From an uncultured Chlorobiota bacterium (lineage in GTDB: Bacteria > Bacteroidota > Ignavibacteria > UBA10030 > UBA6906), in assembly GCA_900696645.1 (NCBI GenBank), contig CAADGV010000032.1, forward strand, positions 1-64,000: a DNA stretch of 64,000 nucleotides, read 5' to 3'. Numbering within the stretch: the first letter of the stretch is position 1; each line of letters opens with the position of its first letter. Shown piece after piece: positions 11,437 to 20,801 of the stretch. The notes under the pieces are model-generated. The model ran no database searches. It saw only the letters and a list, made by a program, of their open reading frames with translations, and was not told where the DNA came from. Both the position numbers and the translations under genes were made by a program.

Positions 11437-12552
11437 TCAAGCGGCGGCGGCTTCCTGCAGCGGGTATTCCTGAAGAATATCGTATAGCGTGTTTCGCTGC
11501 GCCGCTGCAAAGCCGGCTCCGTGAATCAGTTCAATACACTCTTCTGTATTTGTCTTATTCACAAAATTCGCCGCTGCGTGAACATTCTCTTCGAGGATCG
11601 TTCCGCCGAAATCATCGGCGCCGAAATGCAAGGCGATTTGCCCCGCCTTCTTCCCTTCCGAAAACCACGACGCCTGAATGTGATCGAAGTTGTCGAGATA
11701 GATCCGGGAAAGAGCAATAATCTGATAGTAACGATTTGCCGTTGCATAATGCGGAATAATCTTCTCCAACGGCGTATTGCCCGGCTTGAAACTCCACGGA
11801 ATAAACGCCGTGAAACCGTGATATTCATCCTGCAGTTGACGGATTACTTCAAGGTGTTCGATGATGTCTTCATCCTTCTCGATGTGGCCATACATCATCG
11901 TCGCAGTCGTTTTGAATCCGATCTTGTGAGCTTCACGCATCACGTTGAGCCAGTCAGCACTTGTTCCTTTTTTGTTGCTGATTTTCTTCTTCACTCGATC
12001 GGAGAGAATTTCCGCACCGCCGCCCGGAATGGATCGCTGTCCCGCATCCCAGAGTCGCTGCAACACTTGAGGAACAGTCCGACCAGAAATCTCCGCCATG
12101 CCGATAATTTCGGAAGTCGAGTAGAAATGGGGAGTAACGCCGGGGATTTCTTTCACGGTTCGTTCGACCATCTCAACATAGTAGTCAAATGGAACCGCCG
12201 GGTTCACGCCACCCTGCAAAAGAATCGTCGTAACACCCTGCTCCGCCGATTCCTTGAATTTGCGGATCATGTGATCGACGCTGTACGTATATTCGCCTTC
12301 TTCGCCGGAATGCCGGTAGAATGCGCAAAAGATGCAATCGATGTTGCAGATGTTCGTGTAGTTGGGATTGGTATCGACGACGAACGTTACGCGAGGCTCA
12401 GGGTTCTTCTTCAAGCGGATGTCGTTGGCAAGACTCCCGAGTTCGAGGAGGTCGATGTTTTGAAGGAGAAACAATCCCTCCTCCGGGGTGAGTCGAATTG
12501 AAGATCTCACCTTAGAATAGATATCGGCACTTTGTTCCCGCACCCTACGCAT
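11437..12552 (-). CDS. mqnC: Cyclic dehypoxanthinyl futalosine synthase (radical SAM)
   Basis: A 371-residue radical SAM enzyme of the futalosine menaquinone pathway. The cluster motif CNIDCIFC supplies Cys69, Cys73 and Cys76 (CxxxCxxC). It is followed by AFYR, ILLQGGVNP, YGHIEKDEDIIEHL and SFKPGNTPLE, which distinguish MqnC from MqnE and from FbiC/CofH relatives. It cyclises dehypoxanthine futalosine to the cyclic form. It starts 8 bases after the mqnE-mqnA fusion gene, so two consecutive radical SAM steps are made from one transcript; the intermediate MqnB hydrolase is not encoded here. Confidence 0.95.
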   Translation of the reverse strand: MRRVREQSADIYSKVRSSIRLTPEEGLFLLQNIDLLELGSLANDIRLKKNPEPRVTFVVDTNPNYTNICNIDCIFCAFYRHSGEEGEYTYSVDHMIRKFKESAEQGVTTILLQGGVNPAVPFDYYVEMVERTVKEIPGVTPHFYSTSEIIGMAEISGRTVPQVLQRLWDAGQRSIPGGGAEILSDRVKKKISNKKGTSADWLNVMREAHKIGFKTTATMMYGHIEKDEDIIEHLEVIRQLQDEYHGFTAFIPWSFKPGNTPLEKIIPHYATANRYYQIIALSRIYLDNFDHIQASWFSEGKKAGQIALHFGADDFGGTILEENVHAAANFVNKTNTEECIELIHGAGFAAAQRNTLYDILQEYPLQEAAAA

Positions 12553-12560
12553 TTGCTCTC

Positions 12561-14423
12561 CTATGTTCTCACTGATTCAACACGCGCCAACTCTCTAAAC
12601 TTCATCATCCCTTCACGTTCCCGCTCACCGAGATTGAAATTGAATCCTGCTAAGTATTCCTGCGTTTCGGCATCGGTTAACCCGACCGACTTTCCGTATA
12701 CGCCGGCAGCTGCAACGAAATCGCCGGCAGTCTTATCAAGAGAATATGCAATCATCTCCTTCAACTCCGCTTTGCGCTCTTCAGGCAACGATTTCTTCAT
12801 CGCCCACACGGCAAAAACAAACGGCAGCTTCTCCCAATCGTACCACTCGCGGGCGAGATCGAAGACCAACTCAAAACCATCGAGACCTGTTTTGTTGGCT
12901 CGTAACGCTTCATCGCCAATAAGCAACACGGCATCGTATTTCGAGTAGTCGTTCACGCCGGCATGCAGTCGCTCGAACTTCGCCGAAACCCCGTACTTCT
13001 TCTCCAATAACACCTTCAGCAGTTTTACGGACGTCGCAGTATCGTCAGTAATCCCGATCGTCTTGCCGTTCAAATCCAACCAGCCCTCGTTCGAGAAGAG
13101 CATAACGCTTTTCACCTGATCTCGCGTAGCAATACACCAGCCCATCAACTCTAACTTCTCGTGTTGATTGAAATAGTCCATCAGAGAGAACAGTCCGGCA
13201 TCAATCTGATTCTGCTCGCTGAGAACTCCCATTCGTCGAGGCGCAACGGGCAGAATGCGATACTGCCCCTTCTCGAAGTTTGCGTAGAATGGCACCGAGT
13301 TGAGATACGGTATCTTGCCGATGATATTGTCTGTGTACAGCTTCAGCGGATTGTAGTACACATCCCGCTCGACCGGAATCTTTCCCGCATCTTTAATGAT
13401 GCGAATGATCTGATCCTTCGCAAGCGTCATCGGACTGATTGCGCCGGCGTTGTGGGCAATCTTCTCGCCACCGACTGTGCCGTCCATATCGTCCGCGCCG
13501 AAGTTGAGTGCCATTGCCGCAACCTCCTCCGTCAGCATCACCCAGTAAGCCTTGATGTGCGGGAAGTTGTCCAACATGAGCCGCGAGATTGCGATTGTCT
13601 TCAGGTCGTCGATTGCAGAGGTGAACTGATTCTTCGGCTTGATGCCGGTGTCGCCAGGCTGAAACGCAAGCGGAATGAACGTCAGGAATCCGCCAGTCTC
13701 ATCTTGCGCCTCGCGCAGTTTCATCATGTGGATGAGACGTTCTTCAAGAGTCTCGATGTGTCCGTACAGAAGCGTCGAGTTTGTCGGAATGCCTAACTTG
13801 TGTGCCGCCTTGTGTACTTGGAACCAGCCCTTCGCGCCGATCTTTTGTGGGAAGAGAAGCTTCCGAACTCGCTCGGAGAACACTTCCGCTCCGCCCCCCG
13901 GCATGGTTCGCATACCTGCATCGTACAGTTGACGCAAGACTTCCTCGACTGGCATCTTGAATTTCTTGTGAAAGAAGTCGATTTCCACGGCGGTGAATGC
14001 CTTGACGTCCGTATTCGGGAATTTGTCGTGAATCGATCTGACGATGTCGAGGTACCGTTCCCACGGCCAATCCGCCGGCATGCCGCCGGTGATGTGGACT
14101 TCGTGAATATCCGGCGTGATCTTGGAGAGAATCTCCTCCGTCGTCATCTCGTACGCATCGGGTCTGCCCTTCTTTGTGGCAAAGTCGCAAAACTTGCAAG
14201 AGAGAACACAAACGTTCGTGTGTTCGATTTTTTGATTGAGAACGAAGTACACCGCGTCGCCGCTTTTCTGCTGCTGAACGAAATGCGCCATTTTGCCTAA
14301 CGAAAGCAGGTCGGGAGTTCTGTACATCGTCAGGCCGTCTTCGAGGGTCAGGCGTTCGCCGCGTTGGACTTTCTGCCAGATGCGAATGAGTTGATCGTCT
14401 CTAAAGTGGATTTCCGTGGTCAT
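12561..14423 (-). CDS. mqnE-mqnA: Fusion of aminodeoxyfutalosine synthase (MqnE) and chorismate dehydratase (MqnA)
   Basis: A 620-residue protein with two complete domains. Residues 1 to about 362 are MqnE: a radical SAM core with Cys72, Cys76 and Cys79 in CVLSCKFC, then ITGGMPAD, MPGGGAE, YGHIETLEER and AFQPGDTG. From about residue 367 the sequence switches to MqnA, beginning IIGKIPYLNSVPFY and continuing through IDAGLFSLMDYF and IGITDDTATSVKLLKVLLE, the periplasmic-binding-protein-like fold of chorismate dehydratase. MqnA makes 3-enolpyruvylbenzoate from chorismate, and MqnE joins it to SAM-derived adenosine. The fusion therefore unites steps one and two of the pathway and could channel the product. 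The frame is continuous across the junction. Confidence 0.93.
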   Translation of the reverse strand: MTTEIHFRDDQLIRIWQKVQRGERLTLEDGLTMYRTPDLLSLGKMAHFVQQQKSGDAVYFVLNQKIEHTNVCVLSCKFCDFATKKGRPDAYEMTTEEILSKITPDIHEVHITGGMPADWPWERYLDIVRSIHDKFPNTDVKAFTAVEIDFFHKKFKMPVEEVLRQLYDAGMRTMPGGGAEVFSERVRKLLFPQKIGAKGWFQVHKAAHKLGIPTNSTLLYGHIETLEERLIHMMKLREAQDETGGFLTFIPLAFQPGDTGIKPKNQFTSAIDDLKTIAISRLMLDNFPHIKAYWVMLTEEVAAMALNFGADDMDGTVGGEKIAHNAGAISPMTLAKDQIIRIIKDAGKIPVERDVYYNPLKLYTDNIIGKIPYLNSVPFYANFEKGQYRILPVAPRRMGVLSEQNQIDAGLFSLMDYFNQHEKLELMGWCIATRDQVKSVMLFSNEGWLDLNGKTIGITDDTATSVKLLKVLLEKKYGVSAKFERLHAGVNDYSKYDAVLLIGDEALRANKTGLDGFELVFDLAREWYDWEKLPFVFAVWAMKKSLPEERKAELKEMIAYSLDKTAGDFVAAAGVYGKSVGLTDAETQEYLAGFNFNLGEREREGMMKFRELARVESVRT

Positions 14424-14495: not shown

Positions 14496-15512
14496 TCAAC
14501 CCTCAATCTCGTACTTTCCGCGAAGAATCCAAGGATTGTATCGAGGATCAGCTTCATTTTTCTGATTGAGCTTTCGTTGAACAACGCTTGCATGTACCAC
14601 CGGCGTTCCGTGCGTCGCAGGCCACGAACGCTCGGCACGGCGGAACAACGAAGCGGGAAATTTCCCGCGCGAGTCGTGCATGACACCGTCGGGATCGGGC
14701 ACAATCTCTACCTTATGACGCGGATAAATTCTCAGCCCGTGCGATTGCGCATTCTTCACCATCCATTGCAACACGATGTCGGAGAGTTGTTGCTCCCGAT
14801 ATCCACCGCCAACATCGGTGTGCATGCCGCTGAACCAGACTTGATGCATGTTCTGATATTCCTTCACTACCGGATCCCAGAGTGTGGGGTGGAACGTCAG
14901 ACGTTCGTCATCAATGGCAAGCGCATGATACGCATTCTCCACGCTTTCACTCAGGCGCAAGTTGTGAAAGCGATGCTTGAACCAGGGAATCAGTTCGACA
15001 ACATTATCCATCCACTTGAAAGGCAATCCTAACGCTGCCACCGTATCCCAGACACCGAGGAACTTGATGCGGCACCACATCGTACGGTTTTTTGAAATCA
15101 GCTCTTCAGCTTTCTCTTTACGCCTCTCCTGATCCTTGATCCGGTAGATGGAATATGCACGTTTGATGAGTTCCGGTCTTGATTGGGGCAGAATCCCGAA
15201 CAGATGAATGAACCCCGAAAGGCTGCGTACCGTCGTTGCCCCCCGACTGAACCCGAACAGATAAATGTTGTCGTCTGCTTCGAAGTTCTCAAAAATGAAC
15301 CGGTAACAATCACGGATGTTTCTTGAAATTCCCATGCCCGCCATATTGCCGGTGATTTTCCTCCATCCCGTTCCGAGACCCCGATCATAGTAGGCAACCT
15401 GATTCTTCGTCCGGTCTTCAATCATATTGAAGAGCTTGTACACATTCGTATTGTACGCCTTGCCCCCTTCCTGACCCGTACCGTCGGAGAACACGACAAT
15501 GTTTTTGCTCAT
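14496..15512 (-). CDS. DUF2235 alpha/beta-hydrolase-like protein
   Basis: A 338-residue protein of the DUF2235 family, related to type VI lipase effectors (Tle1-like) and to uncharacterised hydrolases. It opens with KNIVVFSDGTGQ, then has YYDRGLGT and the nucleophile elbow FGFSRGA with Ser89. Later come FLGVWDTVAALG, whose Asp is a candidate catalytic acid, and WFSGMHTDVGGGY, whose His-Thr-Asp-Val-Gly-Gly block is conserved in the family. There is no signal peptide, so it is probably cytoplasmic. It lies between the ubiD-like gene and the mqnE-mqnA gene within a menaquinone run, but nothing in its sequence connects it to quinones. Confidence 0.85.
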   Translation of the reverse strand: MSKNIVVFSDGTGQEGGKAYNTNVYKLFNMIEDRTKNQVAYYDRGLGTGWRKITGNMAGMGISRNIRDCYRFIFENFEADDNIYLFGFSRGATTVRSLSGFIHLFGILPQSRPELIKRAYSIYRIKDQERRKEKAEELISKNRTMWCRIKFLGVWDTVAALGLPFKWMDNVVELIPWFKHRFHNLRLSESVENAYHALAIDDERLTFHPTLWDPVVKEYQNMHQVWFSGMHTDVGGGYREQQLSDIVLQWMVKNAQSHGLRIYPRHKVEIVPDPDGVMHDSRGKFPASLFRRAERSWPATHGTPVVHASVVQRKLNQKNEADPRYNPWILRGKYEIEG

Positions 15513-15552: not shown

Positions 15553-17322
15553 TTATTTCCAATACGCGTCCCATCGTTCCTCTACCCTCTTCTTCACTTC
15601 GTCCGTCATCCTGAGCGGATTCGGATAGCCGGGCTTCCACGTTGCATCAATGCCCATCACGCCTTTGTAGATCGGGCTGATGCCGTGGAGTTTTTGTTCC
15701 GTGAAGATGATGTCCCGCTCGCAATCGAAACGTGTAAATACGCCCCAAATGTAGTTCTCTTTATCACGGAGATCGACGTCCTCACTCACCGCGGCGATTA
15801 TTTTGATGCCGCCAAGCTCTGTTTGCGCAACAAGCTTCTCAATGACTTTTCTTCCACCTTCGTTCACTTTGACGAGAAGAAGAGTTTCGTGAACTACATT
15901 CAGATCGGAAATTCTCTTGTCTGCGTCTCGTACCCTCTCAATATTCACTTTACGCGATTCCGTCACCGGCTTCTTGTCTCGCTGTTTCTTCGTCGCATCC
16001 AAAATCATTTTACTGCCGAGATTCATCTTGAAGCTCGTGAAGTCCAGCGTATCGAGCGGCACTTTGGGAATCATCACAAAATCAAAATGCGGATTGAAAT
16101 TGTCACGCACGTTTTTCATGACTTCATCGAAGTTCCTGACGTTTACGCCTTCAGAGACGAGGATGATGCATTTCGTGAGAGAGAGTTGCGACATTCCCAT
16201 CAAGCCCAACGCCGTCTTCATCGCTTCCTTCTGATAGCGCTGATCGACAGCAACGACGAGCAGGTTGTGAAATCCCGCTTCGTAGTACGCCCACATAGCG
16301 GCAATTTCCGAGTGAATCAACTTTGCCAGCGGTCCGAGAATCTGTTGCGTTGCATCGCCCAACCATTTATCCTCCATCGGCGGAATGCCGACAACTGTTG
16401 CAGGATACACTGGATTGAGGCGGTGCGTGATTTTCCTGACATGAAAGACGGGAAACTCCGAGGCATGTGAATAGTGTCCGAAGTGATCGCCGAACGGCCC
16501 TTCCATCCTTCTTTCGCGTGCAGGCACGATGCCCTCAAGAATAAATTCAGCATTTGCCGGAACTTGAATGGAAAGGGACTTCGCTTTGACGAACTCCGTT
16601 CGTTGACCTCTTAGAAATCCTGCAAACATCGCCTCGTCAATATTCTCGGGCAATGCCGCTATCGTCGCCATCAACAGCGCCGGATCGGTTCCCAACGCGA
16701 CTGCAAGCTCGAAATCCTGTCCGAGCCGTTCTGCTTCGTAATAATGGAAGCCTCCACCCTTCTGAATCTGCCAGTGCATGCCCGTCGTTTGCTTGTCGAA
16801 CACGTGCATGCGGTACATGCCGATGTTCCGTTTTCCGTTGCGGGGATCGTACGTCACGACCTGTGGAAGCGTGACAAAACGTCCGCCATCTTCCGGCCAG
16901 CATGTGAGAATCGGGAGTTCATCGAGATTTGGTTCTTCAACAACTTCCTGTACAAGTGCCGAAGAAACGGATTTGTTCCGCGTCTTGAGAAACCTGCCAA
17001 CGATTGGCTTGTGTTTCCACAACACCGACGGCTTCGGAGGCATGGCATCCATCATAAACCGGATCAGTTCTTCCCCGAGTTGTTCGGGATGTTTGTTAAG
17101 GGCAAGCTCACAGCGATGCTCGCTTGCCATCGTGTTAATAACAAGCGGATACTTCGAGCCTTTCACGTTCTCGAAGAGCAGCGCCGGCCTTCGTTCTTTG
17201 ATGGCTCGCGTCGCTATTTCCGTTATTTCGAGATAGGAATCGACTTCAACTGTAACTTTGTGCAACTCGCCTGCCGATTCCAGATAGCGGGCGAAGTCGC
17301 CGATGGTGCGAACGCTTGTCAT
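15553..17322 (-). CDS. ubiD: UbiD-family decarboxylase, probably for the late menaquinone steps
   Basis: A 589-residue UbiD-type decarboxylase. It contains the prenylated-FMN site blocks IGMYRMHVFDKQTTGMHW, EGPFGDHFGHYS (with the catalytic Glu of the Arg-Glu-Glu set), and the metal-binding region around GGGFHYYEAE. The C-terminal half ends with a typical IGIDATWKPGYPNPLRM block. In organisms with the futalosine route, a UbiD homologue removes the carboxylate of the dihydroxynaphthoate intermediate, and the neighbouring UbiX-type gene would make its cofactor. Placement in the same gene run as mqnE-mqnA and mqnC supports this reading over ubiquinone synthesis or aromatic degradation. Confidence 0.88.
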   Translation of the reverse strand: MTSVRTIGDFARYLESAGELHKVTVEVDSYLEITEIATRAIKERRPALLFENVKGSKYPLVINTMASEHRCELALNKHPEQLGEELIRFMMDAMPPKPSVLWKHKPIVGRFLKTRNKSVSSALVQEVVEEPNLDELPILTCWPEDGGRFVTLPQVVTYDPRNGKRNIGMYRMHVFDKQTTGMHWQIQKGGGFHYYEAERLGQDFELAVALGTDPALLMATIAALPENIDEAMFAGFLRGQRTEFVKAKSLSIQVPANAEFILEGIVPARERRMEGPFGDHFGHYSHASEFPVFHVRKITHRLNPVYPATVVGIPPMEDKWLGDATQQILGPLAKLIHSEIAAMWAYYEAGFHNLLVVAVDQRYQKEAMKTALGLMGMSQLSLTKCIILVSEGVNVRNFDEVMKNVRDNFNPHFDFVMIPKVPLDTLDFTSFKMNLGSKMILDATKKQRDKKPVTESRKVNIERVRDADKRISDLNVVHETLLLVKVNEGGRKVIEKLVAQTELGGIKIIAAVSEDVDLRDKENYIWGVFTRFDCERDIIFTEQKLHGISPIYKGVMGIDATWKPGYPNPLRMTDEVKKRVEERWDAYWK

Positions 17323-18949: not shown

Positions 18950-19501
18950 CTACTCGAACTCTTCAGCCCGCCAGCCCTTTGCAGTTCGAATACCGAGTTG
19001 CCCCATCACCTTGTCCGTAAAGGCGCCGACATACTCATCAACACTCTTCGGCACAAAATACAACGGTGATGAAATCGGCATGATGATAGCGCCGTAGCCC
19101 GAAAGTCTCGTACACTGCTCAAGTGATAGCGTTGAGAGCGGCGTCTCTCTGACACAGATAATGAGCTTGTAGCGTTCCTTCAAACAGACTTGCGCAGTCC
19201 GGGTAATCAACGTATCGCCGAGTCCCGAAGCAATCTTCCCGATTGTTGACGTCGAAGCCGGAAGAATCACAAACGCATCGAAGTAATTGGAGCCGGATGC
19301 CATCGGGGCAGTTAAATCGTCGTCGGAGAATTGCTTCTTGATGTACGGCTTCAAGTCCTTCTCGCTCATATTCAACTCATCGCGCAGTAATACCTTCCCC
19401 CACGAACTGACGACAAGATATTTGTCCGCCTGACATTTCTTAAGAAAATCCAATGCGTACACAGCGCCCGATGAGCCGGTGATGCCGACGATGAGTTTCA
19501 T
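18950..19501 (-). CDS. ubiX: UbiX flavin prenyltransferase
   Basis: A 183-residue protein starting MKLIVGITGSSGAVYA, the FMN-binding start of UbiX, with the ATG at 19501. Other family blocks are PASTSTIGKIASGLGDTLITR and VRETPLSTLSLEQ, which hold the dimethylallyl-phosphate and FMN sites. UbiX makes prenylated FMN, the cofactor that UbiD-type decarboxylases need, and a ubiD-like gene lies in the same run at 15553-17322. It acts in the cytoplasm. The intergenic gap to the ubiA-like gene upstream (153 bases) contains a weak inverted repeat. Confidence 0.93.
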   Translation of the reverse strand: MKLIVGITGSSGAVYALDFLKKCQADKYLVVSSWGKVLLRDELNMSEKDLKPYIKKQFSDDDLTAPMASGSNYFDAFVILPASTSTIGKIASGLGDTLITRTAQVCLKERYKLIICVRETPLSTLSLEQCTRLSGYGAIIMPISSPLYFVPKSVDEYVGAFTDKVMGQLGIRTAKGWRAEEFE

Positions 19502-19520
19502 GCCTGATGAATGCCTTTTG

Positions 19521-19646
19521 TGGAACACTGAGGACACAGATGGAACTGATTCTCACTGACTGCTCACTTACAGTCTGTGGTCACCCTCTTGGCTGCAGTT
19601 CTGTGCGCTTTCTTCCTATCTTTGGTGAATATCTGTCTGTGTTCCA
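19521..19646. repeat. Weak inverted repeat between ubiA and ubiX genes
   Basis: TGGAACAC at 19521-19528 is the exact complement of GTGTTCCA at 19639-19646, and ACAGAT/ATCTGT follows inside both arms with a small offset. The arms resemble the AC/GA-rich palindromic repeats elsewhere in the window. The pairing is short, so this may be a decayed element or chance. No gene was seen in this gap. Confidence 0.25.
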
Positions 19647-19654
19647 TCGCAAAG

Positions 19655-20491
19655 TCAGACGGATACTCCGACGAGGACCATGGCAAAGACTGCAAATCCC
19701 GCGACCGCATTGATCTTGAAAAACGCCAGCTCGACATCTTCCGCTTTCTTCTGCTCAAGATACAGGAGATAACCCGTCATAACAAGAAGCGGCAATGCGA
19801 GAAGTGAGAACGGCGAATAGAAAAACAACGCCGTCAGAAATCCGAACGCAATGAAATGGAAAAGCGCGGAAAACTGCAGCGCCCGTGCCCTCCCGAAGCG
19901 GGCAGGAAACGAATACAGCGATTCCTTCTTATCAAATTCCTCGTCAAGCGTTGCGTAGATGATATCGAAGCCGGCAACCCAAAAGAGCGTGAACAGTGAA
20001 AGAAGTGCCGGCGGAATCAGATTCTCGAACGATGGTGAGATGGCGAACCACCCGCCTAACGGCCCCATCGCCAACCCCATGCCGACTCCGAAATGCGCGA
20101 GCGGCGTGTAGCGCTTCATGGTCGGGTAGATAATGAACACGGCAAGCGGAATCGGCGACATATAGAAACAGAATTCGGAAATGAAATACGCCGACCCGAA
20201 ATACAGCGCAAGCCCCGCAACCATCACCCAGCTTGCCTCCCAGATCGTCATCCGTCCGCTGGGCAAATCACGTGTTGCGGTGCGGGGATTCCGGGAATCG
20301 ATATGCCGGTCAATAATCCGGTTGAGAGCAAACGCAACAGTGCGTGCACCGGTTGCGGCTGTCAGAACAAGAATGAGAATCTTCAGCGGCGGTAGCGTGT
20401 TACGCGAGGCGAGCATCACGCCACTGTAGATAAGGGGAAGCGAGAACAGCGTATGCTCGATCTTGACAAAGGAGAAGAACTTCTTCACAAG
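19655..20491 (-). CDS. ubiA: UbiA-family prenyltransferase, likely the menaquinone prenyltransferase
   Basis: About 278 residues from a GTG start at 20491 (VKKFFSFVKIEHTLFSLP), which matches where UbiA/MqnP proteins begin. The frame extends to a GTG at 20575, but that part is not family-like. Both aspartate motifs are present: NRIIDRHIDSRNPRT (NxxxDxxxD) and DIIYATLDEEFD (DxxxD with YA). Eight or so membrane segments surround them. The enzyme attaches the polyprenyl tail to an aromatic acid. Next to ubiX, ubiD and mqn genes it is best read as the MqnP-type enzyme of the futalosine route. It starts the minus-strand run of the first 20 kb. Confidence 0.9.
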   Translation of the reverse strand, partial: LVKKFFSFVKIEHTLFSLPLIYSGVMLASRNTLPPLKILILVLTAATGARTVAFALNRIIDRHIDSRNPRTATRDLPSGRMTIWEASWVMVAGLALYFGSAYFISEFCFYMSPIPLAVFIIYPTMKRYTPLAHFGVGMGLAMGPLGGWFAISPSFENLIPPALLSLFTLFWVAGFDIIYATLDEEFDKKESLYSFPARFGRARALQFSALFHFIAFGFLTALFFYSPFSLLALPLLVMTGYLLYLEQKKAEDVELAFFKINAVAGFAVFAMVLVGVSV

Positions 20492-20801
20492 TTGGGTTTC
20501 CGGGATTTTGAGGGATTTCGTGCGTCCAATATAGAAATTTCCCACATCTCGTCCAACCTCGGGCTTGCGAAGCACAGTCCGCTGAATCGAGTGCCCTCAC
20601 AAGGATATATGCACTACATGATACGGCGGACAAACAGCGTATGAAGGCCAACACCGAGGCAGCTGCGAAACCCCAACGAATTAAAACCGGGCCCGGACTC
20701 ATGCAACTTTCCGGTTCCGCTACTTGTTGAGATCGGTAGTAGCTCATCCGGTTTCTCACGGTAATTGCAACTGTTCTTTCACACAATACAAGGTGGACTT
20801 T
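20492..20801. other. Divergent intergenic region, no gene seen
   Basis: This 310-base gap separates the minus-strand ubiA-like gene from the plus-strand lipoprotein gene, so promoters for both directions must lie here. If the ubiA-like protein starts at 20575, the gap shrinks accordingly. AAGGTGG upstream of 20802 is the ribosome site of the lipoprotein gene. I found no convincing promoter, RNA or repeat. Confidence 0.5.

Follow-up and report, generated by a model that had tools for sequence, protein, structure and literature searches.

A conserved single-frame fusion of mqnE and mqnA in Ignavibacteria very likely encodes a bifunctional enzyme of the futalosine pathway

The 64,000-nucleotide stretch of DNA analysed here (the window) comes from a member of the Ignavibacteria, most of which have not been cultured, and contains a single 620-codon frame, mqnEA, which opens with ATG and reads from 14423 to 12561; the plus strand of the same interval is interrupted by stops. 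Its product holds complete counterparts of both MqnE and MqnA, which catalyse the opening two steps of futalosine-dependent menaquinone (vitamin K2) synthesis. MqnA converts chorismate to 3-enolpyruvylbenzoate, from which MqnE makes aminodeoxyfutalosine. An NCBIfam profile search matched residues 15–359 to the MqnE model TIGR03700 with 458.4 bits against a cut-off of 434.55, and Pfam places Radical_SAM and CofH_C domains across residues 66–360, with one Radical_SAM match only in the whole protein. Residues 368–613 matched the MqnA/MqnD family (PF02621, VitK2_biosynth) with 158.3 bits against a gathering score of 26. The domain matches of both halves are well past chance level. The first-pass annotation had read this frame as MqnE and MqnA in 620 residues, with the cysteines of a CVLSCKFC motif at 72, 76 and 79 and the MqnA half running from about residue 367. 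The profile scores of both halves agree with that reading, the cysteines lie where it put them, and the extent of the PF02621 match fits the proposed boundary; the strand, which had been left unstated, is minus.

Genes of related function surround the fusion (Table 1). Just 8 bp downstream of mqnEA begins mqnC, and genes for UbiD-, UbiX- and UbiA-type enzymes lie upstream on the same strand. We regard the region as a futalosine-pathway gene cluster because mqnC adjoins mqnEA and the upstream UbiD, UbiX and UbiA genes are of the menaquinone type. The decarboxylase gene is separated from mqnEA by a gene for a protein with a Tle1-like phospholipase catalytic domain.

Table 1 Coordinates of the fusion gene, its neighbours and related loci (positions refer to the window unless a contig or locus is named).
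Feature	Position	Strand	Description
mqnEA fusion gene	12561..14423	minus	620 aa: MqnE (1-360), ~6-residue linker, MqnA (367-616)
MqnE half, aminodeoxyfutalosine synthase	13344..14423	minus	residues 1-360; radical SAM, Cys72/76/79; TIGR03700 458 bits; 6xi9 Z 38.8 (predicted model)
MqnA half, chorismate dehydratase	12564..13325	minus	residues 367-620; Asn375 and Ser439; PF02621 158 bits; SCO4506 structures Z ~30 (predicted model)
mqnC, cyclic dehypoxanthinyl futalosine synthase	11437..12552	minus	TIGR03699 455.7 bits, cut-off 428.1
Tle1-like phospholipase catalytic domain protein	14496-15512	minus	PF09994, 257 bits
UbiD-type menaquinone biosynthesis decarboxylase (mqnL-like)	15553..17322	minus	TIGR03701 520.9 bits, above cut-off
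UbiX-type flavin prenyltransferase (mqnM-like)	18950..19537	minus	TIGR00421 154.6 bits, above cut-off
UbiA-type prenyltransferase (mqnP-like)	19655..20575	minus	TIGR01475 268 bits, above cut-off; MqnP models score weaker
Orphan PF02621 paralog	G000 C42:19480-20307 (L181:7481-8320)	minus (L181)	276 aa
MqnA-MqnC fusions, family f8	L169:817-2958, L170:1652-3865, L171:2068-4161, L172:1156-3222		~690-740 aa
MqnE-like proteins without CxxxCxxC	L169:2871-3974, L171:920-2140, L172:3400-4524		adjoin the MqnA-MqnC fusion

A whole-genome search of the host (4.2 Mb, 100% complete) returned no second MqnE, the closest match being mqnC. Three ORFs in this genome belong to PF02621, namely mqnEA, an MqnD-like ORF adjoining a ubiE-type gene on contig C24, and an orphan paralog on C42. 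The first-pass annotation had named separate mqnA and mqnE genes elsewhere in the genome as evidence that would speak against the fusion; no such pair was found, the other MqnA-like ORFs being MqnD and a paralog that lacks the catalytic Asn. The Men pathway was considered as an alternative route and is ruled out, since no menB above the cut-off was found in the genome and the best matches fall far under it (174.7 vs 342.7 bits). The futalosine pathway is therefore the evident route to menaquinone. The step after MqnEA, cleavage of aminodeoxyfutalosine, is a gap in the pathway of this genome: a profile search of it found no MqnB futalosine hydrolase (TIGR03664), nor any protein of the MqnB/MTAN type, and its only two PF01048 proteins are both purine nucleoside phosphorylases.

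Both halves of the protein retain the residues expected of working enzymes. In an alignment of 28 fusions with 59–91% identity to the window's protein, Cys72/76/79 (CxxxCxxC), Asn375 and Ser439 are invariant in 28/28. The last two align with the residues of Streptomyces coelicolor SCO4506 mutated in the crystal structures 7an7 (N to S) and 7an8 (S to A), as read from the PDB chain sequences, and which we take to be Asn17 and Ser86 in the active-site numbering of that enzyme. A check of these two MqnA active-site positions and the TS motif found all of them kept in every covered fusion. Within the genus, the E half has a dN/dS of 0.04 and the A half one of 0.12–0.15, indicating purifying selection on both. 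Amino-acid sites change about three times faster in the A half, though this half too is constrained. An AlphaFold2 model of the product (pLDDT 84.8, pTM 0.85) is consistent with these assignments. Modelled residues 1–366 superpose on MqnE 6xi9 with an rmsd of 2.8 over 352 residues (Z 38.8), and residues 364–616 on MqnA 7an7 with Z 30.3. The lower score of the latter half against MqnD (2czl, Z 23.5), below the ~30 obtained with MqnA, places it on the MqnA branch.

We infer both activities from homology, and on that footing MqnEA is very likely bifunctional. Its C-terminal half would dehydrate chorismate to 3-enolpyruvylbenzoate, to which the N-terminal radical-SAM half would add the SAM-derived 5'-deoxyadenosyl radical to give aminodeoxyfutalosine. 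Residues 1–360 share their fold, the CxxxCxxC motif and a score above the equivalog cut-off with MqnE (TIGR03700), represented by the Pedobacter heparinus enzyme (6xi9/6xig), which stands alone, whereas in MqnEA the MqnA domain follows on the same chain. Residues 367–616 likewise share their fold and the active-site Asn and Ser with MqnA of S. coelicolor (SCO4506, 7ahr) and Deinococcus (DR0370, 6o9a), but these too are stand-alone proteins and the MqnA half is just 22–29% identical to them over the aligned structure. CofGH, the bifunctional radical-SAM fusion of F420 biosynthesis, offers a parallel from the same radical-SAM branch, in that it also fuses consecutive pathway enzymes. It contains two radical-SAM domains, however, whereas MqnEA pairs one with a dehydratase of periplasmic-binding fold; the match of MqnEA to the CofGH model NF006687 lies far under the cut-off (233 vs 1018 bits) and the protein has a single radical-SAM domain where CofGH has two.

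The NCBIfam matches of the mqnEA product include no bifunctional MqnE-MqnA model. Because the models that matched name the protein as MqnE only, mqnA can be recorded as missing from a genome like that of the host. The limited literature collection searched, which included PMC4746308, PMC3914697, PMC3937554 and PMC13386864, yielded no mention of such a fusion.

Among 197 genomes sampled across the class, 65 gave a strong match, and about 45 of these, from nine families (f1–f6, f13, f15 and f16), hold a single ORF with both halves, a count that takes in one ORF cut by a contig end and one with a frameshift. In families f12 and f20, by contrast, MqnE stands alone. A sample of 395 genomes from the phylum yielded no fusion beyond this class, and whole-genome searches detected the fused frame across the order and outside it. 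Named relatives with the fusion are metagenome-assembled genomes (MAGs) labelled Ignavibacteria, Ignavibacteriota or Bacteroidota, together with one labelled Deltaproteobacteria (L075) and one labelled candidate division KSB1 (L077); in a further KSB1-labelled locus (L089) the frame is broken. Thus mqnEA may have been transferred to other phyla, but this is not proved, since the label of a MAG can stem from mis-binning or from how it was named.

Quick trees of each half, with some long branches, point to one origin. All fusions form one clade in the E-half tree (SH-aLRT 99) and again in the A-half tree, where support is only 86 and the fused state needs one change. Together with the genome samples, the two trees bear out the earlier suggestion of a lineage-specific fusion: the fused proteins fall into a single clade that has its centre in Ignavibacteria and takes in a few other MAGs. 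The nearest outside relatives in both trees belong to Omnitrophota, Latescibacterota and Dehalococcoidia. Beyond the clade, the two genes occupy distinct ORFs, which frequently adjoin in the order mqnE-mqnA-mqnC. That order in Omnitrophota, Latescibacterota, Dehalococcoidia and Syntrophomonadaceae is like the host's, but their mqnE and mqnA are two abutting or overlapping ORFs where the host has one, and in Omnitrophota loci the MqnA domain, read in another frame, starts before mqnE has reached its stop codon. In the fusions, 6–9 residues separate the domain edges (21 in one). Because the nearest relatives keep mqnE and mqnA separate, often abutting or overlapping, we conclude that neighbouring operon genes were joined once. 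A single event would have linked mqnE and mqnA in frame within an mqnE-mqnA-mqnC operon, and in the Ignavibacteria lineage the product would then have taken the place of the two individual genes. We hold with high confidence that MqnEA is a genuine bifunctional enzyme of this origin, and the join is both old and conserved and apparently works.

Such a frame could also arise through a sequencing or assembly frameshift that joined two genes separate in the organism, a concern already raised in the first-pass annotation. Single assemblies in our set do show such errors, including split frames (L082, L089) and an 898-aa frame (L033/L074). However, one unbroken frame with a 6–9 residue linker recurs in dozens of independent MAGs and purifying selection acts on both halves, leaving this explanation with a negligible probability; we consider it ruled out by the recurrence. 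The 898-aa frame (L074/L033, G007 C48) runs from MqnE through a truncated MqnA to MqnC, was seen once, and is probably a deletion or assembly frameshift. It is also very unlikely that an internal translation start yields an additional, separate MqnA polypeptide. GTG and TTG codons are scattered around the junction in some fusions, but no start-codon position is conserved there: across 26 codons spanning the junction, 5/28 fusions contain no ATG, GTG or TTG and only three contain an ATG. We reject this candidate for lack of a conserved start.

The MqnA half might instead be a dead or regulatory passenger, with the paralog on C42 as the working chorismate dehydratase. Two observations would fit this idea: many of these genomes contain the paralog, and evolution is faster in the A half than in the E half. 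Against it, all orthodox MqnAs examined and all covered fusions keep the Asn, whereas both the catalytic Asn and the TS motif are missing from the paralog and from related proteins in the order; the paralog has Tyr/Phe or other residues at the position of Asn17 and SE in place of TS. It occurs widely across the class, whether or not mqnE is there, and has conserved motifs of its own (SEI.LAKII and LPFVHA). Fusion families f15 and f16 yielded no copy of it, and some genomes that gave no strong MqnE match do carry it, from which we conclude that it is not tied to the futalosine pathway. We reject it as the true MqnA on its missing Asn and its distribution, and a passenger role for the MqnA half is improbable.

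Having both active sites on one chain may help to hand over the intermediate, or may just hold the two enzymes at 1:1. We advance only tentatively the idea that MqnEA channels, its MqnA half releasing 3-enolpyruvylbenzoate straight towards the MqnE active site. If true, the fusion would reveal a transient MqnA-MqnE complex that exists also in bacteria with separate genes. We think it somewhat probable that MqnEA has both activities but does not channel, the joining of operon neighbours being either neutral or a means of fixing their stoichiometry; this refines the bifunctional reading and is compatible with it. The adjacent, often overlapping mqnE and mqnA of the closest relatives would make such a fusion mutationally easy. 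Another family of the same class (f8) has fused MqnA to MqnC, whose genes are neighbours but whose pathway steps are not consecutive, and operon fusions can thus track gene adjacency over pathway order. On the other side, the fusion is intact across nine families and the pTM of the model suggests a fixed domain arrangement, although neither is proof of channelling. Either way, the conserved fusion is a natural construct with which to test channelling of 3-enolpyruvylbenzoate and how both enzymes dock. Because the futalosine pathway has been put forward as an antibacterial target where the classical menaquinone route is lacking, an MqnA-MqnE interaction would be worth knowing about.

In the f8 fusions MqnA is N-terminal and an MqnC-like radical-SAM domain, which scores under the TIGR03699 cut-off, is C-terminal. 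MqnE-like proteins without the CxxxCxxC motif adjoin three of these fusions (Table 1); another MqnE-like candidate (L214, G042) was left out of the sequence reading. No complete MqnE was found in the genomes with a cysteine-less protein, which is either a relative put to another use or a radical-SAM enzyme now without its cluster.
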